A stretch of 30,987 nucleotides of DNA from a virus. The notes beneath the pieces are model-generated. The model searched no databases, was not told where the DNA came from, and saw only the letters and a program-made list of their open reading frames with translations. This document shows positions 1,472-28,024 of the stretch, one piece after another; position 1 is the first letter of the stretch; each line of letters starts with the position of its first letter. The DNA is taken from positions 1 through 30,987 of IMG/VR virus record IMGVR_UViG_3300046028_006108. One strand, 5' to 3'. Made by a program: the position numbers and the translations under genes.

Positions 1472-1876
1472 ATGGCAACAGTAATAACAACAACAAGCAG
1501 AGAATGGCAGGACCTGGATTTGAATTTTGCAATTCATCCGGTTCGTAAAGATATCAACAAACATAAAGGTGAACTGGCTGTTATCAATTCAATTAAGAAT
1601 TTAATTTCAACCAATCACTATGAAGTCCCGTTCCAACCAGAACTTGGTTGCAATGTGAGAAAACTTCTATTTGAACCATTAGATATGGTCACATCAACTT
1701 TAATTGAGCGTGAAATTATAGAAACAATTAATAATTTTGAGCCTAGAGCAAGTGTTTCTAAAGTTATTGTCAAACCAGATTTCGATAATAATGGATTTAA
1801 AGTTGAACTATTGTTTCAAATTGTCAATAGAACCGACCCGGTAGCAATCAAATTTTTCTTAGAGCGAGTCCGATAA
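1472..1876 (+). CDS. gp25: Baseplate wedge subunit gp25
   Basis: The product is 134 aa, close to T4 gp25 (132 aa). Typical gp25/GpW-family features are visible: an N-terminal DLNFAIHPVRKDI segment, the helix GELAVINSIKNLI, the signature VPFQPELGCNVRKLLFEP at about residues 51-68, then an alpha/beta C-terminal half ending in FFLERVR. In T4, gp25 joins the inner baseplate wedge with gp6 and gp53 and contacts the sheath. Its stop codon abuts the start of gp6 (TAAATG), which suggests translational coupling. Upstream is a CATAAATA octamer only four bases before the ATG, and there is no strong Shine-Dalgarno sequence. Confidence 0.93.
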   Translation: MATVITTTSREWQDLDLNFAIHPVRKDINKHKGELAVINSIKNLISTNHYEVPFQPELGCNVRKLLFEPLDMVTSTLIEREIIETINNFEPRASVSKVIVKPDFDNNGFKVELLFQIVNRTDPVAIKFFLERVR

Positions 1877-3928
1877 ATGGCAGATAATCGTCTACAAGTT
1901 GCAGAACTTGATTTTGATACAATCAAAACCAACTTAAAATCATATTTAAAACAACAGTCTGAGTTTCAGGACTATGACTTTGAGGGCTCAGGCCTTGATG
2001 TGCTAATTAATCTTTTAGCATACAATACTCACTATAACGCATACTATCTAAACATGGTAGCTAATGAGGCATTTTTAGATACCGCACTACTGAGAGATTC
2101 TGTTGTATCACATGCTAAAACATTAGGGTATGTTCCTTATTCCAAATCAGCTTCTAAAGCCGTGATTAATATGACAGTTGAATCTGGTAGTACCACAGTA
2201 GATACTGTAACAATACCAAAAGGTTTTGTTTTGTTGTCCAATACCATTGACAATCAAACTTATAACTTTAATGTAATGGCTGATACGACCGTTACTAAAA
2301 GTGGAACAAAATATTTCTTTGAGAACTTAGAAATTAAAGAAGGACAATTCGTAGCATATTCATTCACACAAGATGAATCTGCAAATCCAAAAGCTATTTT
2401 TGAAATACCAGATGCTGACGTTGATACCAACACAATCTCGGTTTCAGTTAGACCATCTTCAAGTAATTCACAGGTAACAATATACAATAAAGTTACGGAT
2501 ATTTTAGATGTTACTGGTTCTTCTGAAGTGTACTTTTTACAAGAGGCTCGAGGTGGTAAGTTTAAGATTTATTTTGGTGACAATGTTATCGGTAAAAAGA
2601 TTAATAATGGCGCAATTATCAATGTAACTTACTTGTCAACAAATGGAAAAGCTGCAGATAAAGCTTCATCTTTTACTGTAAGTGCTGCTATTGGTGCTTT
2701 AACTAATATTATAGTTGATACGGTATCTGTTGCTGCTGGTGGAACAAACAGAGAAACGGTTAGTGAAGTAAAGTATAATGCCGTAGCTCAATTTGCTACA
2801 CAAAACAGGTTGGTTACTTTCAAAGATTATGAATCCTACATTACTAAAAATTATCCATCACTAGACTCGATTTCAGTTTGGGGTGGCGAAGAAGAAACTC
2901 CTCCAGTTTATGGCAAAGTTTTTATATCAATCAAACCAAAAACTGATTACTATATTTCTGAAACTGAGAAGCAAAGAATTTTGGATGATATTGTTAAACC
3001 AAAATCAATTGTCTCTGTTCAAACAGAGTTTAGAGATCCAGAATACTTATATTTGTTAGTTAACAATTACATACAATACGATCCAAAGAAAACAACTGTA
3101 AGTGCAGATGGTATTAAAAATAACATTAGAAATGCTATTATAGGATATAGAAATTCCAAATTGAATAAATTTGGCGCTAAGTTTATCCTATCTAAAATGC
3201 AAGATTCAGTTGATGCTACAAATTTGAATTCTATTATTGGTTCTGAAACAATCGTGCGATTACAGAAAAGATTTTTGCCTGTATTGAATCAATCTAAAAA
3301 TTATACAATTATTTTTAATGCGCCTTTACATCGTGGTACAATCACAAACAAACTAACATCCACAAGTTTCAATGTTTTGGATATGGATGGTGTTGAAAGA
3401 ACTGTTATCCTTGATGAGATACCACAGTCATATTCAGGTGTTACTTCAATCGGTGTTACTGACGCAGGCACTGGTTACACCTCTGCACCAACGGTAACCA
3501 TTACAGGTGATGGCACTGGCGCATTAGCGGAAGCCGTTATTGTTAATGGTAGAGTTCAAAATATTAATATTACAAATCGGGGAACTGATTACACACGAGC
3601 TGTGGTAACAATTACAGGCGGTGATGGATATGGTGCCAAAGCAGTTGCTATTGTAGATGGTCGAGTTGGAACACTTAGAACAATTTATTACGATTCAGCT
3701 GCACAGAGACAAATTGTTGATACTAATGTTGGTGAAATTGATTATGATTCTGGAACAATTAACATTTATGATATTAATATCTTATCTGTTCTTTCGGATG
3801 ATGGTTATATAAGGTTATCATTTGAGTCGGAAAAAGGCATTGTTGAAACTATTAGAAATACAATTATTACAATTGATGAGAATGATCCTACATCCATCAC
3901 AATTGACTTGACTAAAATATCCGATTAA
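1877..3928 (+). CDS. gp6: Baseplate wedge subunit gp6
   Basis: The protein has 683 aa against 660 in T4. The N-terminus is characteristic of gp6/baseplate J-like proteins: DFEGSGLDVLINLLAYNTHY at residues 34-53, then YLNMVANEAFLDTALLRDSV. The central part has VYFLQEARGGKFKIYFGDN and the conserved KDYESYITKNYPSLDSISVW (316-335). In T4, gp6 dimers join the wedges into the inner ring of the baseplate. Residues ~521-600 hold two copies of a Gly-rich beta module (GTGYTSAPTVTITGDGTGA, then GTDYTRAVVTITGGDGYGA) that T4 gp6 is not known to carry and that recurs in the next genes. The ATG follows the gp25 stop directly. Confidence 0.93.
   Translation: MADNRLQVAELDFDTIKTNLKSYLKQQSEFQDYDFEGSGLDVLINLLAYNTHYNAYYLNMVANEAFLDTALLRDSVVSHAKTLGYVPYSKSASKAVINMTVESGSTTVDTVTIPKGFVLLSNTIDNQTYNFNVMADTTVTKSGTKYFFENLEIKEGQFVAYSFTQDESANPKAIFEIPDADVDTNTISVSVRPSSSNSQVTIYNKVTDILDVTGSSEVYFLQEARGGKFKIYFGDNVIGKKINNGAIINVTYLSTNGKAADKASSFTVSAAIGALTNIIVDTVSVAAGGTNRETVSEVKYNAVAQFATQNRLVTFKDYESYITKNYPSLDSISVWGGEEETPPVYGKVFISIKPKTDYYISETEKQRILDDIVKPKSIVSVQTEFRDPEYLYLLVNNYIQYDPKKTTVSADGIKNNIRNAIIGYRNSKLNKFGAKFILSKMQDSVDATNLNSIIGSETIVRLQKRFLPVLNQSKNYTIIFNAPLHRGTITNKLTSTSFNVLDMDGVERTVILDEIPQSYSGVTSIGVTDAGTGYTSAPTVTITGDGTGALAEAVIVNGRVQNINITNRGTDYTRAVVTITGGDGYGAKAVAIVDGRVGTLRTIYYDSAAQRQIVDTNVGEIDYDSGTINIYDINILSVLSDDGYIRLSFESEKGIVETIRNTIITIDENDPTSITIDLTKISD
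3437..3676 (+). repeat. Two Gly/Tyr beta modules in gp6
   Basis: Residues ~521-600 of gp6 contain two related units (GTGYTSAPTVTITGDGTGA and GTDYTRAVVTITGGDGYGA), each followed by an A-rich strand and VDGRV or VNGRV. The same pattern is found in the proteins at 3933, 6486 and 8097. Confidence 0.7.
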
Positions 3929-6485: not shown

Positions 6486-8087
6486 ATGGCAGCAATAACT
6501 AATAAAAAATTATCGTTTAATACGGCAGAACAATTCAAAGAATCGTTCTCAGAAGGTAATCCAACAATAGCATATGTTACTGTTGGAAACCATGTTCCTT
6601 ATGCAAATGAGGCCTCTCCAGATTCTATTGCTGATACTATATCAGCAGAAAAGAATACTTGGGACAACATCTATGCTGCAAAGAGAGCAACAGGAAATGA
6701 TGTTCAATTGGTGGTTCCACGGATTAACTGGACCTCAAACACCAGATATCGCCAGTATGATGACACAATTGATGTTTCAACATTAGTGTCTTCGAATACT
6801 ACACAAAATTTGAAACCGATGTATGTAATCACATCGGCAAGAAATGTTTACAAATGTGTTTCTAATAACGCATCTGCAAACTCCACAGTTGAACCTTCTG
6901 GTGACTATACAACTTCTAATGGCAACATCTCTACAGGTGATGGGTTTGTTTGGAAGTATATGTACAATGTCAAGCCATCAAATAAATTTTTAACAACGGC
7001 ATGGATACCAGCTCCAACATCTACTTCTGCATTGGATTATGGAGTCAATAGTTCTGGTGTTGTTGATGGAGAATTAACCACAATTGTGGTTACAAATCCA
7101 GGTGTCAATTATAGACAAGCTTCTAACATCAGAGTTGACTCCTTTACTTCTGGCCAAACTTCATTGAAGTTGTCGAACACTTCATTAACTTTATCTATAT
7201 TCAGTATTCCAGCTCTATCTAATTTAAGCAATTTATCAATTAGTGGAACAGGTATACCGAGCGATACTTACATCAGTTCTATTTCCAATACAACAGGTAT
7301 TATAACATTATCAGCCGCAGCAACTGCAATTGGTGGCAATGCTAATAATATTACAATTTCAACCAGAGTTTATATTTCTGGTGATGGTATTGGTGCTGTT
7401 GCAAGTGCTACACTTTCTAACACATCATCTGGTGCCTCAGCCGCTCAAGCTAATATATCAAAGATTGTTGTATCTACTATTGGTTCTGATTATACCACAG
7501 CAAATGCGTTCATTTACGGTTCGGGCTCTGGTGCTCAAACTAGAGTTATTTTACCGCCAAAATTTGGCCATTCTTTTAATCCTGCTAAAGAATTAAGTGC
7601 AAATAATGTAATGGTTTCTGTAAGGATTGGCGAGATTGATTCTACTGAACAAGGGTTAATTTCAGTTGATACCTCATTTAGACAGATTGGTTTATTGAGG
7701 GATCCATATAAATATGGTTCAACTGTTGTAGCAAATACTGCTACAGCTAATTCTGTTATCTCACAAACTACTGATTTGGATGTTGTTGCTGGAACTCCAT
7801 ATTCTTTGAATGAATATGTTTATCAAGGCTCAGTATCTAATCCAAATGGATATGGTTTTATTAATGCTCAAACTACAAATGGTGTTCGTATAACAAAAGT
7901 TAAAGGCACATTTGTTACGGGTCTTTCACTCATTGGTTCCACTTCTGGTTCATCCAGAACAGTTACCTCAGTAACGCAACCAGAATTTGAACCATATACA
8001 GGTGATATAATGTATACGGAAAATATAACAAAACTCGACCGGGCAGATGGCCAGGCGGAAAATATTAAACTAATCGTAAGTTTTTAA
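6486..8087 (+). CDS. gp8: Baseplate wedge subunit gp8
   Basis: The protein has 533 aa against 334 in T4. Several blocks align with T4 gp8: TIAYVTVGNHVPYANE (T4 FITFGRSEPWSSNE), VQLVVPRINW (T4 DAVIPRRDW), RNVYKCVSNN (T4 WLVYRCLD), TGDGFVWKYMYNV (T4 PGDGYVWEYLFEI), and the C-terminus GDIMYTENITKL followed by GQAENIKLIVSF (T4 GEMIYMENRPPI and EEINILFTF). Gp8 is a dimeric wedge protein linking gp10, gp7 and gp6 in T4. The ~200 extra residues are mostly a beta-rich insertion at about residues 200-350 that carries two Gly/Tyr modules. The start is the ATG seven bases after a CATAAATA octamer; the Shine-Dalgarno sequence is weak. Confidence 0.88.
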   Translation: MAAITNKKLSFNTAEQFKESFSEGNPTIAYVTVGNHVPYANEASPDSIADTISAEKNTWDNIYAAKRATGNDVQLVVPRINWTSNTRYRQYDDTIDVSTLVSSNTTQNLKPMYVITSARNVYKCVSNNASANSTVEPSGDYTTSNGNISTGDGFVWKYMYNVKPSNKFLTTAWIPAPTSTSALDYGVNSSGVVDGELTTIVVTNPGVNYRQASNIRVDSFTSGQTSLKLSNTSLTLSIFSIPALSNLSNLSISGTGIPSDTYISSISNTTGIITLSAAATAIGGNANNITISTRVYISGDGIGAVASATLSNTSSGASAAQANISKIVVSTIGSDYTTANAFIYGSGSGAQTRVILPPKFGHSFNPAKELSANNVMVSVRIGEIDSTEQGLISVDTSFRQIGLLRDPYKYGSTVVANTATANSVISQTTDLDVVAGTPYSLNEYVYQGSVSNPNGYGFINAQTTNGVRITKVKGTFVTGLSLIGSTSGSSRTVTSVTQPEFEPYTGDIMYTENITKLDRADGQAENIKLIVSF

Positions 8088-8096
8088 GGACGGTCA

Positions 8097-11000
8097 ATGG
8101 CTCTTGATACCAATTTTAATGTAAATCCATATTATGATGACTATGACGAAAATAAGAAATTTCTTCGTATGTTGTTTAAGCCAGGCTATGCTGTTCAGGC
8201 TCGTGAATTAACACAGCTTCAATCAATTTTACAACAACAAGTACAAAGATTTGGTAATAATGTATTTAAAAACGGCTCTGTTGTCACAGGCGGCCAAACT
8301 TTTTTCCAAGAGGTAACTTATCTTAAATTGGATTCCACATTCTTGGGTAATGCTGTTACTGTAGACAACTTTGTTGGTAAAACATTAGTTGATGATAATA
8401 CAAATCCAACTAAGCGTGCGATGGTTATGAAGGTGTTTGATGCCGATGCTGGCACAGGCGACCCAAAAACTCTATTGATTAAACCAATTTTTGGTGATCC
8501 ATTTGCATCTGGTGATACAATTAAAACTTTCGAAACAAATACTATTTCAGCTAATGTTTCAGCCGCTGGCGTTGGTACTGGCCAAATCTTTTCAGTTAAT
8601 GAAGGTGTTTTTTATTACGAAGGATTCTTTGTTAAGAGCGATGCACAAACTATTGCTGTTTCAAAATACACCGCTGATTCAAATACAAGAGTTGGTTTTG
8701 AAATTACCGAATCTACAGTATCATATGCATCAGATACATCATTGTTGGATCCAGCACAAGATGCCTCCAACTATCAAGCTCCTGGTTCCGACCGTTATAA
8801 AATTACAATGACATTGGCTCAACGAAGCCTTGCGTCTATCGATGATACTCAATTTATTGAATTAGCTAGAATTGCTGAAGGCAAGTTAGCAAAGTATAAC
8901 CGAGAGCCAATCTATTCGGTGTTGGAAGAAACACTAGCTCGTAGAACATATGATGAATCTGGTAACTACACCGTTAGACCATTCAATTTGACATTGAACA
9001 CATCTTCAGCTAACTCAGCTAACATGGAAGTAATCTTGTCTCCAGGCAAGGCGTATGTTTATGGTTATGAATATGAATCAGTTACACCAAAAAAACTTAT
9101 TGTTCCAAAACCAAGAAGTACAAATAGTGTCAGTAACAAACGTATCACCGCAGACTATGGATACTATGTCTATGCAAATACGCTTTATGGAACTCTGCCA
9201 ATTAACAGTCTCCAAACTGTTGACCTGCATTGTGTTCCAAACTCATCAATTAATGTAACATCTACTGCAACCATTTCCAACACAAAAATTGGTACTGCAA
9301 GAATTAAATCTATTCAGTTTGATTCGGCAACAAACACATCCAATTCTGCGACATATCAATACAAGACTTTCTTGTTTGATGTGAATGTTGGTTCATTGAC
9401 GGGTGTAGTTAATACAGCTATTAACGTAAGTGCTGTTCAAATTGCTAACACTTTGATTCCATCTGATAATAGAATGACAACCGATAATGCTTATATTGGT
9501 GCTAAATTTAGAATTACTAGTGGACCTGGTGCTGGCGAAAATGCTAAGTTAATTACAAATTATAGTGGTGTAAACGCTACTATTACTCTATCTGATCCAT
9601 TTATTGCACCATTAACAAATGCATCTCAATATTCTATTGACTTTGAATTCAATGATGTTAATTCTATTGTTGTTACAAGTGGTGCCGGCGCATCTGCAAG
9701 AGTTGCCGCAATGGACATTGACCAACGCTCTAAAGACCATTCAACAACATTTGATGATGTGTTTATTAGTGACACAAACTTAGAAGCATTAATCTTTAAA
9801 CTTGGCGAAAATTACATTGCCAATAGTTCAATTAGTGGTCTTTCATTGTCATACCGAAGGTTGTATGAATCACAAACATTTGCAGCTGGTTTATCTCCTG
9901 CATTAGGTTTAAGTAGCGGCGAAGCATTGTCCACAGCTTCTTCCACTACAACAAGACAAGCAAACTATCAAGTTGTTGTTACATCTGCAGGATCCTCTGG
10001 ATATGAAGTTGGCAAAGCTATTCCTGCTGACCAATTCACAGTTGATTTGGCTACTAGAAAGATTACAGTCACAAGCGGTTTAAATTTAACTGCAAACATT
10101 TATGCGACTATTGATGCTACTGCACCAAATCCAAAAACCAAAACTTATGTTGAGGCAAATACTTCGTTGCAGTTATCGGCTGGTGTAAACTTATTTGGTA
10201 ATGGTGCTGTTACATTGTACACATCCAATGGCCAAATTCAGATTGCCGCTAACACGGTTGTTAAATCACCTACTGTTTCTCAATCTTTATATGTTCCAGA
10301 TGTTATTAGAATTGTTTCGGTACTAGATTTTAATAATAACAACATCACTCAGGCAAATGTTGGTTCTGCCATTGATGTTACCACAAGATATTCACTTGAT
10401 AGTGGCCAAAGAGATTCTTATTATGACCATTCATCTATCAAATTAAAACCTGGTAATGCAGCACCGATTGGACCATTGGTTATCAAATTTGATAGATTCT
10501 CATCATCTGGTGCAGGATTCTTTACAAACGATTCATACAACACTTATTCGTATGAAAATATTCCAAATTTTACATCTTCAAGTGGTACCAACTATTCGTT
10601 GCGTGATTGTTTAGACTTTAGGCCAATTCGTTCAGCTGCAACAGCTGCAACAGCAAACTCTGTTGTGTTTGATGTGGATTCATCAACAACTGGTCCTAAG
10701 ATTCCAGAAAATGGCTCAGATATTATTTTGAGTTATAATTATTATTTGCCACGAAATGATAAAGTTGTTCTCAATAAAGACCGCACTTTCGAAGTTGTGA
10801 GTGGCGTTCCATCTTTATATCCAGAAGATCCAAAAGACAGAGACAACTCTATGACATTATATGTCTTGCGTAGTCCTGCATATGTGGCAAACACATCTAA
10901 TGTGTCAACACAGTATATAAATCACAGACGTTATACCATGAGAGATATTGGTACTATTGAAAAACGTATTGAGAATTTGGAATACTACACATCATTGTCA

Positions 11001-14000
11001 TTGTTGGAACAAAGCACAGTTTCTAAACAAGACTTAACAATTATAGATTCACAAAATTTACCAAGATTTAAAAATGGTATTATTGTAGATTCATTTACCG
11101 GTTCAGGTGTGGCTGATGTGGCACAACCAGATTATCATGCATCTATTGATTCCAAATTACAAGAATTGCGTCCATCATTTACTACAAGCGCAGTAACTTT
11201 AGAATTTGATTCCGCTAATTCTTCTGGCTTTACACAAAATGGAACTTCTCTCGTTGTAAGCACTACTGATACTCCTTTCATTGACCAATCTAAAGCGTCA
11301 AAAGCATCAAATATTAACCCATTTAATATTACCAACTATATTGGTAAAATTGCAATTGACCCAACAACCGATATTTGGTTAGATACAAATCGTCAACCAG
11401 ATGTTCTGATTAATCTTGGTGGTTCTGCTGATGCATGGAATAGAATTACCTCATTGACTTCTCCATATGATTATGTATGGGGTGCATGGGAAAATCATTG
11501 GACAGGAACAAGTACGCAAGTTCAAAGCTTTCAAACAAGAACTGGTAACTTAGGCTTTTGGGGTGGTGATGGTAATACACAAGGTATGGCTCAAATTATT
11601 GATACGTATCAAACAACAACTACACAAACTGGCACATCTACTCGCTCGGGTATTGTGTCTAGGGTCGTTCCAGAAACCATCACACAAAACATTGGTGATA
11701 GACTAGTTGACTTATCTATTATTCCTTATATGAGAACTAAGGGTATTGTAGTGGTTGCTACTGATTTCAAACCTAATGTAACATTGTTTCCATTCTTTGA
11801 TACAATACCTGTTGAATCATTTACTGCTCGTGCTAATAAATTTACATTACAAAACAATAACCTTAGTTATAGAACTGAGGTTGGCAATTTTGAACAAGTA
11901 ACTATTTTTAATAATGGTACTGCATCATCTGTTGGTACTGCGTTCATAGTTAGAACATCAAATACTGAAGCTTTCATTGTTAATAATCAACCAACTGGTT
12001 CTTACAACCTCGCTTCTGCAAACTTGATTGGTCAATCTACAGGAACATCTTCTAAGATTGTCCGCTATGAACACTATACAGGTCGAGTTGCTGCGGCCAA
12101 TACAAATTCGATTACATTGGCCTTAGATGCTGATTCTGCAAACAATGTTTCTGATTATAATACATCGCCAATTTTTGTGGTTTCAGGAACTGGCGCTGGC
12201 CAAACTGCAACAATTACATCATACAATCCTGCAACAAGAATTGCTATGATTTCTGGAACATGGGGAACAACTCCTATTGCCAACGATTCATTCTATTCTA
12301 TTGGTAGATTGAAGACAACTGCGGCTGGTGATGTTGCTGGTATCTTTACGATTCCTGCCTCAACATTCCGTATTGGTGAAAAGAAACTTCGTTTAATTGA
12401 TAATAACATTAACGATATTGTGGCTTCTACCACAAACGGAGATGCATCATTCTTTGCTCAAGGTGCTGTACAAACAGTTGAGGCCTCAATTCTTTCTATT
12501 ACGCAGCCTACAATCCAAAGAACAACGGTCCAACAAGAACAACCAATCTCCAGAGTTGCTGGTACAACAAGAACGGATGTGGTTGTTGGATGGTATGACC
12601 CACTCGCACAAACATTCTTGATTGATCCGATTGCATATCCACAAGGTGTGTATATCAGTAGGTTGCGTACTTGCTTTAAGTCTAAAGATGATACTATTCC
12701 AGTTACTCTGCAATTGCGTCCAACTGTGAATGGATATCCGTCATCATCTGTAATTTATCCAAATGGCTCTGTTACATTAACACCAGATAAAGTTAAGATT
12801 ACAGATTCTCCAAGCTTGGATGATGCAACCAAATTTACAGAATTTAAGTTCGATTCACCAATCTTTATGCAACCAGGTGAACATTCGTTTGTATTGTTTG
12901 CCAACTCGAATAAGTATGAGGCATACGTTGCTGAAGTTGGTAAGTTGGATATCGTCGGACAACGACAGATTTCAGAACAGGCCTATGGTGGTTCACTATT
13001 CTTATCACAGAACGGCTCTACATGGACAGCTGACCAAACATCAGACATGTTATTCAGAATATACAGAAATGTATTCTCTACAGCGCCTGCTACTCTACAA
13101 TTTAATGTTGTAGCGCCGTCAGCTAATGTGCCTTATGACTTGATGCATTTGATTACAAATGATTTGACTATTGCCAATACATCTGTGTCTTATACATTCG
13201 ATTCAACAAGAGATGGATTAGGTTCTAAAACAGGCTTCTTGCCAATCACTCAACTGCGTAACTATACGATGGATGATGGCTTTGGACGCCGTGTTATTAC
13301 CGGTGCTAATACATCATTGGTGTTGAAGGCTACGATGGCAACATTGAATCCTGCCGTTACGCCTGTACTTGATTCATCTCGTTGTGGTGCTATTCTTGTT
13401 CAAAACATAATCAACAACTTGCCATTAAGCAACTCAGGATTATTTGTTACATCTTCTGGTACAGGCTATGCAAACACTACTGACATTACTGTAACTATTA
13501 CAGGTGGAGGTGGTACAGGTGCAACTGCTGTGGCAAATGTTGTATCTAATACAGTTAATTCTGTGTACATCACAAACGGCGGTTCAGGTTATACAACTTC
13601 TCCAACAATCACATTAACTCCTGGATCAGGTGGTGGTTCAGGTGCGGTTGTAGTGTATAATGGTGAAGACAAACAACTTGGTGGTAACTCTGATGTGCGC
13701 TATATGACACGTAAAGTTATTTTGAATGATGGTTTTGATTCTGGCGACCTTCGTGTTTACCTGACTGCGTATAAGCCATCTAATGCAAACATCCATGTGT
13801 ACTACAAGATTTTATCCAAATCCGATAATGATTTGTTTGATAATAAAAACTATCAGTTGATGACAGAACTTGGTAATGAAAACTATGTTGCAACTAACAA
13901 AAATGATTTCCGTGAATTAGTGTTTGCACCTGGACTTGGAGGTGTTGCGAACAATTCTGTTAGTTATACAACTGATACAACTGGATTTTCAACATTTAGA

Positions 14001-14093
14001 ACCTTCGCAATTAAGATTGTGATGGCAGGAACAGATACAATTGATGTTCCAAAAGTCCGTGATGTTCGTGCAATTGCATTCCCAGCAGGTTAA
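8097..14093 (+). CDS. Large DUF4815-type baseplate/tail protein
   Basis: At 1998 aa this is the largest gene in the window, with a clear AAGGA ribosome binding site. Residues ~10-70 ([20 protein letters not shown], then [20 protein letters not shown]) are the hallmark start of DUF4815-type proteins of marine T4-like phages. Around 1470-1620 a second conserved block reads [33 protein letters not shown], then VNGYPSS. Most of the rest is Thr/Ser/Asn-rich beta sequence, as expected for a long structural protein. Residues ~1782-1856 carry two Gly/Tyr modules ([20 protein letters not shown] and [20 protein letters not shown]). The position right after gp8 corresponds to T4 genes 9-10, so a peripheral baseplate role with fibre attachment is inferred. 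It could instead be a tail fibre base. Confidence 0.82.
13441..13665 (+). repeat. Two Gly/Tyr beta modules in the DUF4815-type protein
   Basis: Residues ~1782-1856 contain [20 protein letters not shown] and [20 protein letters not shown], each followed by an Ala/Val strand. They are close in pattern to the gp6 pair although the host proteins are unrelated. Confidence 0.7.
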
Positions 14094-14094
14094 T

Positions 14095-14322
14095 ATGACA
14101 CTAGTTAAAGTTGATGATACTTCTTTTGTTCGGGACACCCATTCCAAAGCCATTCTAAATACGGACAGGAATGGGTTGAACGAATACTATATGAAACGGG
14201 AACTTGCTAAAAGACAGGCTATAGAAAAGCAACAAGACAAGGCTCGATTGGATAAACTAGAAGAAGATATGCAAGAAATAAAACAGTTGTTGCAACTTAT
14301 TGCCGCAAATCAGGATAAGTAA
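14095..14322 (+). CDS. Small coiled-coil virion-associated protein
   Basis: The product has 75 aa. I chose the ATG at 14095, one base after the upstream stop and preceded by AGCAGGTTAAT, rather than the in-frame ATG at 14041 inside the DUF4815 gene. The N-terminal part (TSFVRDTHSKAILNTDRNGL, then NEYYMKREL) resembles a small protein family I have seen in T4-like phages, where RD...KA(I/L)NTDR..L..Y is typical. Residues ~38-75 are strongly heptad-like and charged (RLDKLEEDMQEIKQLLQLI), which predicts a coiled coil. The last base of its stop is the first base of the next ATG (TAATG), so translation is probably coupled to the fibre gene. The exact role is unknown. Confidence 0.75.
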   Translation: MTLVKVDDTSFVRDTHSKAILNTDRNGLNEYYMKRELAKRQAIEKQQDKARLDKLEEDMQEIKQLLQLIAANQDK

Positions 14323-15272
14323 TGTCTATAATTTCACAATTAAATACCGCAAATACCTTTAGTCAATGGTTAACGGGTACGCAAGACCTAATCAGTAAAG
14401 TCAATGAACTGGCTGAGGGTGGAAATAATTTTATTTTCTATTCGAATACCAACCTTTCGGTTGCAAATAATGTGACGATTGGTGGAGACTTGACAGTCTC
14501 AGGTAACATTGTTTTGGATGCAATTGGGTTTGATGATATTAATGCAAACGGATCAATTACTGCTGCTAATAATTTATCAGTTGGTGGCCAAACAACATTA
14601 ACCGGTAATGTAGCAATTGGTGGCAATTTAACGGTATCAGGAAATATTATCCTTGATGCAATTGATTTTGATGATATCAACTCTAATGGTTCAGCTTCTT
14701 TTGCAAATAACTTAACAGTTTTAGGTACATCAAATCTTAATACTATTATTAGTACCACTGGTCTTTTAAGTGTTAACTCAAATGTCTTTGTTAATGGATT
14801 TGCATTTTCTTCAAATGCTAATGTAAGAACTGGTGTTACTACTTTTGCTGTTACGAATTCTGGTTCAGGTGCTTATGTATTTGACCAATATTCTGGTAAC
14901 AATCCTGACATATATTTACATCCTGGCCAAACAGTTTCATTCAACATTAATGCTGTCGGGCATCCATTTTTAATAAGACAGTCAAATGGTGGAACACTAT
15001 ACAGTAATGGTCTTACTCATGTTTCAACAACAGGTGTTGTTACTGTTGGAAGTGATGCTCAAGCAAAACAAACTGGAACACTCATTTGGAAAGTTCCTTT
15101 TGAATTAACAGGTAACACTTATGTTTACCAGTGTCAGGTTCATAGCGGCATGGTAGGCAATTTAATTATTCAACCTACTGTTACTTCAGTTAACGCAACT
15201 GCTGTGGCAGCTTTTGCAGCAGCTAATGCATCTACTGCTGATTCTCTTGCCTTTGCAATCGCATTGGGATAA
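14322..15272 (+). CDS. Tail-fibre-like protein with stalk repeats and cupredoxin-like domain
   Basis: This is a 316-aa protein in three parts. Residues 1-40 (TFSQWLTGTQDLISKVNELA) look like the base segment of marine-phage fibre proteins. Residues 50-141 are two 46-aa repeats (GGDLTVSGNIVLDAIGFDDI and GGNLTVSGNIILDAIDFDDI), typical of a trimeric beta stalk. Residues ~171-286 read as a cupredoxin-like beta-sandwich: PGQTVSFNINAVGHPFLI contains His214, and YVYQCQVHSGMVGNL contains Cys271, His274 and Met277. These four match the type I copper ligand set, and the C-x2-H-x2-M spacing equals that of amicyanin. Whether metal is bound is inference. An Ala-rich tail follows. The stop lies in a tandem late-promoter-like sequence. 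Confidence 0.78.
   Translation: MSIISQLNTANTFSQWLTGTQDLISKVNELAEGGNNFIFYSNTNLSVANNVTIGGDLTVSGNIVLDAIGFDDINANGSITAANNLSVGGQTTLTGNVAIGGNLTVSGNIILDAIDFDDINSNGSASFANNLTVLGTSNLNTIISTTGLLSVNSNVFVNGFAFSSNANVRTGVTTFAVTNSGSGAYVFDQYSGNNPDIYLHPGQTVSFNINAVGHPFLIRQSNGGTLYSNGLTHVSTTGVVTVGSDAQAKQTGTLIWKVPFELTGNTYVYQCQVHSGMVGNLIIQPTVTSVNATAVAAFAAANASTADSLAFAIALG
14469..14744 (+). repeat. Two tandem 138-base coding repeats (46 aa each)
   Basis: Residues 50-95 and 96-141 of the gene at 14322 align without gaps. The first halves are nearly identical in protein (LTVSGNI-LDAI-FDDIN-NGS) and the second halves more diverged. The units run 14469-14606 and 14607-14744. They look like an internal duplication lengthening a fibre shaft. 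Confidence 0.8.
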
Positions 15273-15304: not shown

Positions 15305-15622
15305 ATGGCAAACACATTTAAAAATTATTTTGGTAAAGCTGTCACAGCAAACTCGACAATCTTTACCGCAGGCGCAGGAGTACAGGCTACGGCTATTGGT
15401 ATGACAATTGCAAATTTGACTACCTCACCAATCACAGCCAACGTATTTCTAACGGCTGGCGGTACTGACTACTATATGGTTAGTCAGGCCACAATTGCGG
15501 TTGGAGGTGCTTTAGTACCAATTGGTGGTGACCAGAAACTTGTTCTGGAAGCCGCTGATGCTATTAAGGTTTCAACATCGGGAACTAGTGACGTTATTTT
15601 ATCGGTCTTGGAGATTAGTTAA
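15305..15622 (+). CDS. Small beta-rich virion protein (small beta family, member 1)
   Basis: The product is 105 aa with ribosome binding site AAGGATATT. It reads as a compact beta domain: IGMTIANLTTSPITANVFLT, then GGALVPIGGDQKLVLEAADA, then a C-terminal strand ending SVLEIS. Small proteins of this kind (ANLT...V.V...., VGG.LV..GGDQK..LE.GD...V) are common among virion proteins of marine T4-like phages. It shares the pattern of central I/V-A-N strand, a hydrophobic VP/VGG turn and a C-terminal EIS/ETIT with the proteins at 16169 and 24820. It overlaps the next gene by one base (TAATG). A capping or collar role next to fibre proteins is inferred only. Confidence 0.65.
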   Translation: MANTFKNYFGKAVTANSTIFTAGAGVQATAIGMTIANLTTSPITANVFLTAGGTDYYMVSQATIAVGGALVPIGGDQKLVLEAADAIKVSTSGTSDVILSVLEIS

Positions 15623-16152
15623 TGTATCTAGGCAATACACCAACCACTCAAGCATTCGTAGCTCTTACCGAAAGATTTAATGGTAATGGTAGTGCGACTA
15701 CTGTTACTTTGTCTAGAGCGGTGTATAATGCTTCTGATATTGAAGTTCTTGTTAACAATGTTCAACAGGATCCGTTTGAAGCCTATACAGTAAACGGAAC
15801 TACAACTCTCACATTTACTGAGGCACCATCTTCTGGTACTGGTAACATCATTGTAACATATAGAAGTTACCTTATTTCTAGGATTGTTCCTGGCGAAGGT
15901 ACTGTAACTTCTTCGGCAATTGGAACTGGTGCAATCACTGGTGATAAGATTGTTGCAAACACAATTGGTTCTTCAAACCTAACTATTACTGGTGTTTCTG
16001 CTGGTACATATGGTGGTACAGGTAACACTCCAAGTTTAATCATTGATGCACAAGGTCGTGTGACCGCAGCAATCAATGTGGCAACAACTTCAAGTGGTGG
16101 CGGTACAAGTTCTGCGAAATCAATTATATTGAATGCTGTCTTCGGCGGCTAA
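15622..16152 (+). CDS. YLGN-type tail fibre stalk protein
   Basis: This 176-aa protein starts at an ATG overlapping the previous stop, with GGAG upstream. Residues 1-8 are MYLGNTPT, an N-terminal tag seen in other genes here and in many marine phage fibres. Residues ~10-90 form a fibre beta-domain (FNGNGSATTVTLSRA, then VLVNNVQQDPFEAYTVNG, then LTFTEAPSSGTGNIIVTYR). Then come AITGDKI stalk repeats and the module GVSAGTYGG with IIDAQGRVTAAINVA, which is shared with the protein at 21118. It ends SIILNAVFGG, close to the SIVFGG end of the 24254 protein, its apparent paralogue. Its neighbours (small beta protein, then Gly-rich protein) are repeated around 24254. It is probably a distal fibre connector. 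Confidence 0.72.
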   Translation: MYLGNTPTTQAFVALTERFNGNGSATTVTLSRAVYNASDIEVLVNNVQQDPFEAYTVNGTTTLTFTEAPSSGTGNIIVTYRSYLISRIVPGEGTVTSSAIGTGAITGDKIVANTIGSSNLTITGVSAGTYGGTGNTPSLIIDAQGRVTAAINVATTSSGGGTSSAKSIILNAVFGG

Positions 16153-16168
16153 TTAAGGAAAAATACAA

Positions 16169-16582
16169 ATGGCAAATCCAAATATGGCAAACTCGGTGTT
16201 CATTTATGGCAGTACTGCCTATTTGACACCAGCTACAACGGCAACAAATACATCATTCCTATATGCTTCGACAGCAAACGGTATCACATCAATTACTGGA
16301 TTGACACCACCTGTTGGAAGTATCAATAGAATTGGTAGTATTCTTGCTACTAACATTACACCAAACACAACAAACGTAACTGTTGGTGTATCAAATCAAG
16401 CTCCATACTCAGCAACTGGTGTAAACTTTATTGCTTATCAAGTATCAATTCCTGGTAACTCTACTTTGATTGTTACAGATAAGAGTGTACCTGTATATGT
16501 TACAGAATATCAAGCTCTTGGTGTTACTACAGGTGTTGCTAACTCAGTAAGCTTTGTTGTCAACTTAGAAACTATTACCTAA
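16169..16582 (+). CDS. Small beta-rich virion protein (small beta family, member 2)
   Basis: The product is 137 aa with ribosome binding site AAGGAAAAA. It has no recognised named domain. The C-terminal half (VSIPGNSTLIVTDKSVPVYV, then GVANSVSFVVNLETIT) aligns clearly with VSVPADATLILTDKSTSFYL and GSANGLSVLCSWEEIS in the 24820 protein, and both start MA-PN--N. They are paralogues. Composition and alternation suggest an all-beta fold. The gene sits between a YLGN stalk gene and a Gly-rich adhesin gene, as does its paralogue, so the three products may assemble together. It overlaps the next ATG by one base. Confidence 0.65.
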   Translation: MANPNMANSVFIYGSTAYLTPATTATNTSFLYASTANGITSITGLTPPVGSINRIGSILATNITPNTTNVTVGVSNQAPYSATGVNFIAYQVSIPGNSTLIVTDKSVPVYVTEYQALGVTTGVANSVSFVVNLETIT

Positions 16583-17456: not shown

Positions 17457-18971
17457 ATGGCTGGTATTTTTACACAACGTAACATAAATCAATTAAGAAC
17501 TCTTGGTGGATTACCAGGAGTTGCACCCACTTTTGTTGAATACCTTTGCGTTGCTGGTGGTGGCGGTGGTGGTACGGCTCAGCAAAATACTTATAATGCT
17601 GGTGGGGCGGGTGCTGGTGGTTTATTAACGGGCATGATTCCTGTTACGGCTGGTGCTTCTTATACAGTAACTGTTGGTGCTGGAGGCACAACTAATACTG
17701 TAGGCGTAAATTCTGTATTTGGTGCAATTACATCCAAAGGTGGTGGGTCAGGCGGTTCTGGTAGTTCAGGTGCGGTTGGTGTCAATGGTGGTTCTGGCGG
17801 TGGTGGAGCAGGTCACAATGATGTTGGCTCAAACAACGGCACAGGAATTTCAGGTCAAGGCAATAATGGTGGTTCTGGGTCAAGTTCCGCTGGTGCAGGC
17901 GTTTACGGCGGTGGTGGTGGTGGCGGCGCAGGAACAGTTGGTTTAAACGGAACACCAGGTACTGGTGGTAATGGCGCCGCTGGTATTGCATCATCAATAT
18001 CTGGAACAGTAACCATTTATGCTGGAGGTGGTGCTGGTGGAGCATCTTCTAGTCCTGCTGGTACGGGTGGCGCTGGTGGCGGGGGTAATGGTAACGCTGG
18101 TGCTGTTGGTTCTCCCGGTACAGTCAATACAGGTGGTGGAGGAGGCGGTGGTTCTGGGATTGGAGGAAGTTTTGCTGGTGGCACAGGCGGCGCAGGCTGC
18201 GTAGTAGTCAGATATCCTGGCACAACTCAGTTTTACACCGGTGGTAGTGTTTACACAATAGGTGGATATGTTGTACATCGGTTTCTGTCATCAGGTACTT
18301 TAACACCAACAACGCCAACTCCAGCCACAGTAGCTCCTTCAGTTATTGGCCAAGCATTCCAAGGCGGATTCTACGCTGGCATGATTGCGGCTAACGGTAG
18401 TGGATTTCCTACGCACTATTTGGTTGTTGCGCCAAAGGCATCTGGTGAATCATCAAAACAATGGAAAAATGCTACAACTGATACACCCAACGCAGACAGC
18501 TTTATTGATGGGCCACAAAACACGGCAGACATGGTTGCTGACGGAAACTCTACTGTTTACCCTGCGGCTCATTTCTGCAATGATTTGGTTATAGGCGGAT
18601 ACTCAGATTGGTATATGCCAGCACGAAACGAATTGGAAGTTTGCTATTACTTTTTAAAGAATGGAACTCAAAATAATTATATAGCGTCTGGAAATAAAGG
18701 AAATAATCCAAATGCAGTATTTCCAGAACCTATTTCTACGAATTACACAACCACTGTACCAGCGCAAACTACCGCAACGGCGTTTCAAGTTGGAAATTCT
18801 GAAGCGTTTCAAGATACGACTTATTGGAGTAGTACAGGGATGGGACACACTTATCCGGGAACCGACAATGCTTGGGGCCAACTTTTTTTCTCGGGTCAAC
18901 TAGGCGACCAAACAACATTTGGCAAGACAACTTCATATGTGGCTCGTGCAGTTAGAAGGGTGGCAATATGA
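17457..18971 (+). CDS. Glycine-rich adhesin 2 with Lcl/DUF1566-like lectin-fold domain
   Basis: This is a 504-aa protein with ribosome binding site AAGGTGAATA. N-terminal tag AGIFTQRNINQLRTLGG; scaffold VEYLCVAGGGGGG at 27-39; polyglycine and loops to ~254 (VVVRYPG). After the usual SGTLT point a Thr/Pro linker (TPTTPTPATVAP, 282-293) leads into a second domain, ~298-504. This has SDWYMPARNELEVCYYFL at 383-400, YWSST at 456-460, AWGQLFF, and VARAVRRV at the end, the pattern of Lcl/DUF1566 domains, which have a C-type-lectin-like fold. The phage probably uses it for receptor binding. Its stop overlaps the next start (ATGA). The Lcl call is fairly firm from motifs; the ligand is unknown. Confidence 0.78.
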   Translation: MAGIFTQRNINQLRTLGGLPGVAPTFVEYLCVAGGGGGGTAQQNTYNAGGAGAGGLLTGMIPVTAGASYTVTVGAGGTTNTVGVNSVFGAITSKGGGSGGSGSSGAVGVNGGSGGGGAGHNDVGSNNGTGISGQGNNGGSGSSSAGAGVYGGGGGGGAGTVGLNGTPGTGGNGAAGIASSISGTVTIYAGGGAGGASSSPAGTGGAGGGGNGNAGAVGSPGTVNTGGGGGGGSGIGGSFAGGTGGAGCVVVRYPGTTQFYTGGSVYTIGGYVVHRFLSSGTLTPTTPTPATVAPSVIGQAFQGGFYAGMIAANGSGFPTHYLVVAPKASGESSKQWKNATTDTPNADSFIDGPQNTADMVADGNSTVYPAAHFCNDLVIGGYSDWYMPARNELEVCYYFLKNGTQNNYIASGNKGNNPNAVFPEPISTNYTTTVPAQTTATAFQVGNSEAFQDTTYWSSTGMGHTYPGTDNAWGQLFFSGQLGDQTTFGKTTSYVARAVRRVAI

Positions 18972-24253: not shown

Positions 24254-24814
24254 TTGGCCTACCTAGGAAATCAACCCACATCATCGACCTTTGCTATTGA
24301 CTCCTTCAATGGTGACAATAGCACAGTCAACTTCACCTTGCGTGAAGCACCATTAGCTACTTCTTCGATTCTAATATTCGTTGGTGGTATTCGCCAGCAT
24401 ACAGATACATATTCGGTATCTAGTACAACACTTACTTTCTCAGAAGCACCGCCAACAGGCACAAATAACATTCAAGTATTGTTCCTTGGAATTGGTGCTA
24501 GTCCACATATTCCATCAGATTTTTCTGTATCCGCAGTTAAGATTCAGACTAATGCTATTACTGGTGACAAGATTGCACCAACAACAATTACATCCAATCT
24601 AATTGCATCAGCAACTATTACTGGTGATAAAATCGGTCTTACAGCTATTACATCTAATTTGATTGCATCAGCTGCTATTACAGGCGACAAGATTGGCCTG
24701 ACAGCAATCAACGCAAATAACATCGTTGACGCAACAATTACAAACGCAAAACTTGCCACACCCGGCGCAACAACAGGAAAGGCAATAGCTATGTCTATTG
24801 TATTCGGAGGATAA
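24254..24814 (+). CDS. YLGN-type tail fibre stalk protein, second copy (TTG start)
   Basis: The product is 186 aa. The start is TTG at 24254: AAAGGATAAT lies at good spacing and translation from there gives the expected AYLGNQPTS tag, while no ATG lies between the upstream stop and this tag. Residues ~15-80 are a fibre beta-domain (FNGDNSTVNFTLREAP, then GGIRQHTDTYSV, then LTFSEAPPTGTNNIQVLF). Residues 101-160 are three 20-aa repeats built on ITGDKI...ITSNLIASA. The end is SIVFGG. It is the paralogue of the 15622 protein and has the same neighbours downstream (small beta protein, Gly-rich protein). Inferred role: connector and shaft for the adhesin encoded next. Confidence 0.73.
   Translation: MAYLGNQPTSSTFAIDSFNGDNSTVNFTLREAPLATSSILIFVGGIRQHTDTYSVSSTTLTFSEAPPTGTNNIQVLFLGIGASPHIPSDFSVSAVKIQTNAITGDKIAPTTITSNLIASATITGDKIGLTAITSNLIASAAITGDKIGLTAINANNIVDATITNAKLATPGATTGKAIAMSIVFGG
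24554..24733 (+). repeat. Three tandem 60-base stalk repeats
   Basis: The units at 24554-24613, 24614-24673 and 24674-24733 each encode 20 residues beginning A/T-ITGDKI. The first two end ITSNLIASA and the third ends INANNIVDA. A partial fourth unit (TITNAKL) follows. Synonymous differences between copies show they are not brand new. Confidence 0.85.
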
Positions 24815-27302: not shown

Positions 27303-27653
27303 ATGGCACATTATGCATTTTTAGATTCTAATAATATTGTTACAGAAGTCATCGTTGGCAAAAATGAAGGCGAAGATGGTATTGATTGGGAACAACACTA
27401 TGGTGAATTTCGTGGTCAAACTTGTAAACGAACAAGTTACAATACTTATGGCGGCGTTCACCTAAATGGTGGTACACCATTACGTAAAAATTATGCTGGT
27501 ATTGGTTTTACATATGATTCTATTCGTGACGCATTTATTCCACCAAAACCACACCCTGATTTTCTATTGAATGAAGATACTTGCACTTGGTACACAACAA
27601 ATCCAGCCTTGTATTACGGCGATGTTATGGTAACACCTGTTGAGGAAGCATGA
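27303..27653 (+). CDS. KNYAGIG-family marine phage protein, copy 1
   Basis: This 116-aa protein has ribosome binding site AAGGAATAA. N-terminus MAHYAFLDSNNIVTEVIV and central PLRKNYAGIGFTYDSIRDAF with FIPPKPH match the 29484 protein closely. This family is very common in cyanophages and other marine phages, usually unannotated and near fibre genes. The C-terminal part (FLLNEDTCTWYTTNP) keeps the LNE-T--W core but lacks the APV...YRWDE segment present in the 29484 and 18968 proteins. The stop overlaps the start of the cupin gene (ATGA), tying it to that gene in translation. Function unknown; an accessory factor for adjacent adhesins is my inference. Confidence 0.7.
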   Translation: MAHYAFLDSNNIVTEVIVGKNEGEDGIDWEQHYGEFRGQTCKRTSYNTYGGVHLNGGTPLRKNYAGIGFTYDSIRDAFIPPKPHPDFLLNEDTCTWYTTNPALYYGDVMVTPVEEA

Positions 27654-28024
27654 AGACTTTTGAACTTGGTTACTTTGGTAACATTTGGGTTAAACAAAAT
27701 GTTCTCGAACATGCAGGCGAAGCCTTTGATGGACACGAACACAAATTTGACCACGTAACCTTATTAGTGTCAGGTAAGGTCAGCGTTCAAATTAAAGATA
27801 ATACACCTAAAGAATTTACGGCTCCAACTTTTATTGTGATTCGCAAAGAACATCAACACAAAATTACTGCGCTTGAAGATAATACAATTTATTATTGCGT
27901 GTATGCGTTGCGTGATTTAGATGGAGAAACAATGGAAATATTTGGTGACCAACATGATCCTGAATATGCAAGCACTAGAAGCGATGGATATTGGGAAAAA
28001 GTTAAAGAATTGGAAAATACATGA
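27650..28024 (+). CDS. Cupin-fold protein
   Basis: This 124-aa protein is linked by four-base ATGA overlaps on both sides. The cupin pattern is visible: GHEHKFDHVTLLVSG at 28-42 gives His29, His31, His35 and Gly42. This fits cupin motif 1 (H-x-H-x3-E-x6-G), but with His at the usual Glu position. A second His cluster, KEHQHK at 66-71, could supply the motif-2 ligand, followed by TALEDNTIYYCVYALRD. The proline-glycine of classical motif 2 is missing. Metal binding in a small beta-barrel is likely. Substrate unknown. Being sandwiched between a KNYAGIG gene and an FN3 adhesin gene suggests it acts on, or assembles with, fibre components. It could alternatively act on a host metabolite. Confidence 0.75.
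   Translation: MKTFELGYFGNIWVKQNVLEHAGEAFDGHEHKFDHVTLLVSGKVSVQIKDNTPKEFTAPTFIVIRKEHQHKITALEDNTIYYCVYALRDLDGETMEIFGDQHDPEYASTRSDGYWEKVKELENT

Follow-up and report, generated by a model that had tools for sequence, protein, structure and literature searches.

Known cupredoxins and the phage connector family

Amicyanin and plastocyanin are soluble electron carriers of the periplasm or lumen. The cupredoxin fold of the amicyanin/plastocyanin-azurin group (PF00127, TIGR02657, TIGR02656) and its ligand order, His...Cys-x2-His-x2-Met, are shared by the phage domain described here, which, in contrast, is part of a virion protein. In small cupredoxins the first His is usually followed by Asn; with Pro at this place, the Cys sulphur has one backbone hydrogen bond fewer. 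The T1 sites of multicopper oxidases likewise have His-Pro, and the His-Pro-Phe of the phage domain, which departs from the His-Asn of small cupredoxins, resembles the T1 His. In nitrite reductases, an extra cupredoxin is tethered to the catalytic NirK core (N-terminally in the three-domain enzymes 2dv6 and 6tfd, C-terminally in the NirK of 9cck and 6hbe), whereas the phage domain is tethered to a fibre shaft devoid of any enzyme.

The domain lies in a window of 30,987 nt, the whole stretch of DNA that was analysed (positions 1 to 30,987 of IMG/VR virus record IMGVR_UViG_3300046028_006108). On the phage side, its described counterpart is PHROG 677, the "baseplate wedge tail fiber protein connector" of T4-like cyanophages. 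This family is matched by all 33 divergent relatives of the domain (best E value 1.4e-56), and the domain corresponds to its C-terminal part. In the window protein, the match is confined to the second half of the profile (aa 90-286 against positions 240-411 of 412, E 3.9e-21); the first half is left unmatched, and aa 1-170 have no match at E<=1e-3 among phage records. A literature search, mainly of open-access coverage, found no description of a phage-tail cupredoxin domain. In a study of the evolution of cyanophage S-PM2d (PMC9910659), no mutation attributable to the cupredoxin-bearing gene was found.

Gene context and domain organization

The domain is encoded by an ORF at 14322-15272 (+), whose product is a protein of 316 aa. 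The interval 14832-15179, which the earlier note had assigned to the domain, translates exactly to aa 171-286, and the four proposed copper ligands (His214 in VGHPF; Cys271, His274 and Met277 in YQCQVHSGMVGNL) all occupy the positions claimed for them. The description as a C-terminal domain applies insofar as it lies near the C-terminus; it is not at the extreme end, since 30 residues follow. The main features are as follows.

1472-3928, +: baseplate wedge subunit genes, phrog_261 at 1472 and phrog_219 (gp6-like) at 1877 (profile match)
6486-8087, +: baseplate wedge subunit, phrog_438 (profile match)
8097-14093, +: large DUF4815/VrlC-like structural protein, phrog_358, the upstream neighbour (profile match; syntenic)
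14095-14322, +: small virion structural protein, phrog_473 (profile match; synteny)
14322-15272, +: putative cupredoxin-bearing fibre/baseplate protein (ORF; phrog_677; synteny in 16 IMG/VR records)
14322-14456, +: tentative N-terminal anchor, aa 1-45, with predicted helices 2-8 and 13-32 and the motif TANTFxQWL (alignment; low-confidence full-length model)
14475-14555, +: tentative shaft repeat 1, aa 52-78, TIGGDLTVSGNIVLDAIGFDDINANGS (translation; repeat number differs among relatives)
14613-14693, +: tentative shaft repeat 2, aa 98-124, AIGGNLTVSGNIILDAIDFDDINSNGS (translation; missing in several relatives)
14832-15179, +: predicted cupredoxin domain, aa 171-286 (AF2, Foldseek, VIA-align)
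14961-14963, +: His214, predicted first ligand, in GHPF (translation, conservation)
15132-15134, +: Cys271, predicted thiolate ligand (translation, conservation)
15141-15143, +: His274, predicted second His ligand (translation, conservation)
15150-15152, +: Met277, predicted axial ligand (translation, conservation)
15180-15269, +: Ala-rich linker of variable length and terminal LAFAIALG, aa 287-316 (alignment of 10 sequences)

A long fibre cassette lies downstream of the gene. The order DUF4815 protein, phrog_473, cupredoxin protein and ORF15305 is kept in 16 IMG/VR records, most of which also have ORF15622 in place, and it persists even where the DUF4815 proteins are only 35% identical. Among named phages, the closest relatives of gp6 are those of Methylophilales and Pelagibacter phages (~39% identity), followed by cyanophages. 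The proposed association with a tail fibre thus agrees with the phrog_677 match, the syntenic records and the position of the gene within a baseplate/fibre module. From this context we infer that the product belongs to the baseplate or a short fibre of an uncultured, aquatic T4-like myovirus; its identity as a tail fibre likewise comes from gene context.

Across relatives the N-terminal anchor, the cupredoxin domain and the final LAFAIALG are conserved (A310, F311, I313, A314, L315 and G316 are invariant in 10 aligned sequences), whereas the shaft and the Ala-rich linker differ in length. A full-length monomer model from a shallow alignment reached a pLDDT of 48.9 and indicates at most a helix and a repetitive shaft; the description of anchor and shaft is tentative because this model is poor.

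Several other features of the region were observed. With the listed TTG start at 14041, which is probably too early, the phrog_473 gene would run into the DUF4815 gene; its likelier start is an ATG at ~14095, directly past the DUF4815 stop. Between 16582 and 29370 there are six paralogous glycine-rich fibre proteins (PF21722/phrog_2295; at 16582, 17457, 19359, 20208, 25205 and 28021), of which that at 17457 also has a terminal Lcl_C domain; they are accompanied by repeated small phrog_7759-like proteins at 18968 and 29484. Hydrophobic C-terminal peptides ending in Gly recur in several ORFs of the fibre region, including those at 15622-16152 and 24254-24814 (LAFAIALG, window 15243-15269; SIILNAVFGG; AIAMSIVFGG), and perhaps represent a shared assembly signal. 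A small His-rich, cupin-like ORF (EHAGEAFDGHEHKFDHV) at 27650-28024, within the fibre cassette, looks as if it could bind metal.

Predicted fold and copper ligands

The domain was modelled with AF2 from an alignment of 44 window and IMG/VR sequences, giving a mean pLDDT of 96.6 and a pTM of 0.89. When the model was compared with the PDB by Foldseek, there were 37 matches at E<=1e-3 and every one was a blue-copper or multicopper protein, among them AcoP, rusticyanin, NirK, laccases and the two proteins with which comparison had been proposed, plastocyanin and amicyanin. In VIA-align 2, the highest scores were obtained with Geobacillus NirK (9kvl; Z 11.1, 2.3 Å over 105 residues), the N-terminal cupredoxin of the Hyphomicrobium three-domain NirK (2dv6; Z 10.4, 1.9 Å over 91 residues, 24% identity), and rusticyanin (2cal; 2.0 Å over 92 residues) and AcoP, both at Z 9.7. 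Values of Z<8 can reflect merely a common arrangement, and those of the domain (9.5-11.1) exceed this level. The cupredoxin-like fold suggested earlier is therefore borne out by model confidence, by the uniform list of matches and by Z scores of up to 11.1, and the domain almost certainly has a cupredoxin fold.

In the model, the first-ligand His (model residue 44) sits in a loop between strands 34-40 and 46-49, C101 ends strand 96-101, and H104 and M107 are in the loop ahead of strand 108-113. This predicted placement is that of the type 1 ligands in cupredoxins. As modelled, the domain has both the fold and the ligand order of type 1 (blue) copper proteins, which strongly suggests that His214, Cys271, His274 and Met277 would close a mononuclear type-1-like copper site. 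Cys271 is the sole Cys of the whole protein and Met277 its sole Met besides M1. The trinuclear motifs of multicopper oxidases, HCH and HxH, are absent from the protein, which has one Cys only.

Conservation of the ligands was assessed in two sets. The first comprised 33 divergent relatives with a mean column identity of 39%; in it the four ligands, Pro215 and Tyr269 are invariant, and nothing else is. In a non-redundant set with a mean pairwise identity of 37.5%, the Cys, the second His, the Met and Tyr269 are present in 37/37 sequences and His214 and Pro215 in 36/37, the lone exception being a misaligned extra copy (L037/L072). (The table for this set is numbered +1, as the stop-to-stop ORF begins one residue earlier.) All four ligands are within the 6 best-conserved of 95 columns; random placement of four ligands in the top six has a probability of 15/3,183,545, or ~5e-6. 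The IMG/VR members of this set (L071-L150) were collected with the His motif NAVGHPF alone as search seed, and the isolate-phage members by tblastn without a seed, so that conservation of Cys, His and Met is independent of the search. The ligand order and spacing originally proposed are thus complete and conserved across divergent relatives. Exceptions among the relatives are a copy cut at a contig end (L143), the misaligned extra copy above, and a degenerate copy in S-CAM1 (L174, 1826-4081) that keeps the His-Pro-Phe half and has lost the C/H/M loop. Among close relatives, dN/dS for the domain is ~0.04-0.27; the domain is under purifying selection.

Two other candidates were considered. His200 and His233, conserved in close relatives only, were rejected as ligands. 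A disulphide in place of a metal was rejected because the protein has one Cys.

Relationship to cupredoxin families

A phmmer search of the PDB with the single window domain gave no match, so that profiles were needed. Both the protein (13.0 bits, E 0.14) and the domain (15.4 bits, E 0.025) miss the gathering cut-off of PF00127 (21.2 bits) as single sequences, and a first-pass genome search found no PF00127 in the window's own record; 12 of the 33 relatives match this model at E<=0.1. A profile of the 33 divergent sequences, searched against the PDB at E<=0.01, retrieved only copper nitrite reductases (5.4e-5), plastocyanins (1.1e-4), amicyanins (6.8e-4) and rusticyanins (0.0037). Against curated models, the relatives gave best values of 2e-6 for amicyanin (TIGR02657, matched by 3 of them), 3.4e-5 for rusticyanin and 1.3e-4 for plastocyanin (TIGR02656), and the window domain itself had no NCBIfam match at E<=0.01, TIGR02657 included. 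The At5g54830-like domain (PF25489) is matched weakly by 6 relatives (best E 5.4e-4), below its cut-off.

The resemblance to amicyanin extends to the C-x2-H-x2-M loop (CQVHSGM at 271-277), as had been suggested: its length is the same, and HMM alignments pair it directly with that of amicyanin, as well as with the extra domains of NirK. In the plastocyanin alignment the first His is displaced by ~2 residues, and its equivalence therefore rests on the fold. The extra cupredoxins of 2dv6, 6tfd, 9cck and 6hbe are the best PDB profile hits; at 24-26% they have the highest identity to the phage domain among the top structural matches (rmsd 1.9 Å, 90-91 residues). Within the cupredoxin superfamily, the domain is most aptly described as a phage-virion subfamily that belongs to PHROG 677 or lies close to it.

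Distribution

With the window domain as query, 208 phage records match; with relatives as queries the number is 337-353, nearly all of them Synechococcus or Prochlorococcus phages. The earlier remark that similar segments occur in structural proteins of marine phages but seldom bear a name is in line with these numbers, as most are not named as cupredoxins. The usual annotation is "baseplate wedge tail fiber connector", gp9, or sometimes gp10, and in most gp9-like connectors examined the domain ends 1-7 residues from the C-terminus. Other carriers are a subtilisin-like structural protein, with the domain at its C-terminus, proximal fibre and spike proteins, where it is internal, and a podovirus; there are several copies per phage, at differing positions in long proteins. 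Non-cyanophage carriers are two Pelagibacter phages and one actinomycete phage. The sole non-phage gene, found with a single-protein query, encodes a secreted collagen-like protein of a Bacteroidetes MAG (L151, 5020-8043), in which the cupredoxin domain is flanked by Gly-rich repeats; a query with a smaller alignment found no cellular relatives, and a plasmid search found no copy. The domain is not cyanophage-specific.

In five of the cyanophages examined, the next baseplate gene past the gp9-like connector bears a second, divergent H...C-x2-H-x2-M copy (L164, 3737-4111; L168, 3944-4198; ORFs at L170, 2750, L171, 2755, and L172, 2750). A 168-aa homologue in S-SCSM2R (PQ898602.1; L176, 2794-3300) has been labelled "PetE" by one depositor. 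It sits in an adhesin/S8-peptidase cluster, and the S-SSM7 homologue past the S8-peptidase gene (L177, 2069-2803) is labelled "gp9 connector"; the S-SCSM2R gene is probably not a true petE, the plastocyanin auxiliary metabolic gene.

Possible functions

We favour, with a probability of roughly 0.6, a T4-like baseplate or short-fibre protein that would carry a type-1-like copper site with a mainly structural role. The protein would start with a helical anchor, continue in a short beta shaft of repeats whose length varies, and carry the cupredoxin domain near the C-terminus. The ligands would come together at an end of the beta-sandwich, between two of its loops, to form the mononuclear site, and copper, acquired from the lysate or the water, would join these loops and stiffen a docking module that packs on neighbouring fibre or baseplate subunits without electron transfer. 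Binding of copper (or of another soft metal) in the virion is likely and, given metal binding, the role would probably be mainly one of structure and docking. A docking role is preferred because the domain and the ends of the protein are conserved while shaft length varies. It is favoured further because the domain is not diversifying like a receptor tip, occurs in several copies and positions, and has no redox partner or enzyme nearby, and it is supported by a relative (L013) in which the domain is 81% identical at a DUF4815 identity of 36%, and by the domain's position at the end of connectors. On the other hand, a purely structural role would leave unexplained the retention of a full redox-type ligand set rather than a disulphide. 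The single-sequence PF00127 score of the domain below the cut-off (15.4 against 21.2 bits), and Pro instead of the usual Asn after the first His, also speak against this explanation.

The His2-Cys-Met set, together with the conserved Tyr269, is of the type of electron-transfer proteins rather than of a generic structural metal site, and cyanophages predominate among isolates. Both points would suit a fibre that acts in redox chemistry or sensing, whose site would be in its oxidised form in the water, would then be reduced by a donor at or in the cell envelope, and which would signal a live cell, through a change in copper state or loop conformation, or pass an electron to a host partner. Such a role is nevertheless unlikely, as the window holds no visible redox partner or enzyme domain, several copies occur per phage at varied positions in long proteins, and the domain is also present in Pelagibacter and actinomycete phages and in the bacterial collagen-like secreted protein. 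The more specific idea of a photosynthetic redox partner finds no support: the domain is also carried by phages whose hosts are non-photosynthetic and by the bacterial secreted protein, and the nearest baseplate relatives come from Methylophilales and Pelagibacter phages. A search of the 16 IMG/VR relatives for psbA/D by PF00124 found none, which is weak evidence as these records are fragments.

Similarly unlikely is a generic beta-sandwich domain for adhesion or decoration, with ligands that bind another metal (e.g., Zn), or none, in the virion. The score under the PF00127 cut-off and the one degenerate S-CAM1 copy without C/H/M would be compatible with such a domain. However, the four ligands are strictly kept in very divergent copies, which is hard to explain without selection for a metal, and their order and spacing are those of a type 1 site.

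Copper might instead mediate attachment, with the loaded domain docking on a host receptor for copper uptake or a copper chelate, a copper counterpart of the "Ferrojan horse". The fibre/baseplate location fits, and there is a precedent for iron, for which potential metal-binding tail fibres have been proposed (PMC11705849). Receptor-binding tips usually diversify, though, whereas purifying selection acts on this domain, which is better conserved than the shaft and often lies inside longer proteins; attachment of this kind is very unlikely. Chance resemblance or mis-translation is refuted by conservation, predicted structure and purifying selection, and its probability is negligible.

Implications for aquatic phages

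The distribution of the domain suggests that many phage particles may carry overlooked copper sites. If the domains hold copper, hundreds of sequenced cyanophages and their freshwater relatives would bear tail metal centres that are not named in the literature found, and the discussion of metals in virus particles, which has so far concerned iron, would extend to copper. The conserved end of the cyanophage connector family PHROG 677 gains a likely identity, and some of the phage genes called "petE" may encode tail domains. Blue colour and EPR would offer a visible, testable handle on virion appendages. It is conceivable, albeit doubtful, that a virion-borne type 1 copper centre, in several copies per particle, is a general baseplate/fibre part of aquatic tailed phages, and that its copper state controls attachment or baseplate triggering. 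If such control existed, whether through occupancy of the site or through its oxidation state, the copper chemistry of the water would affect the infectivity of these phages.
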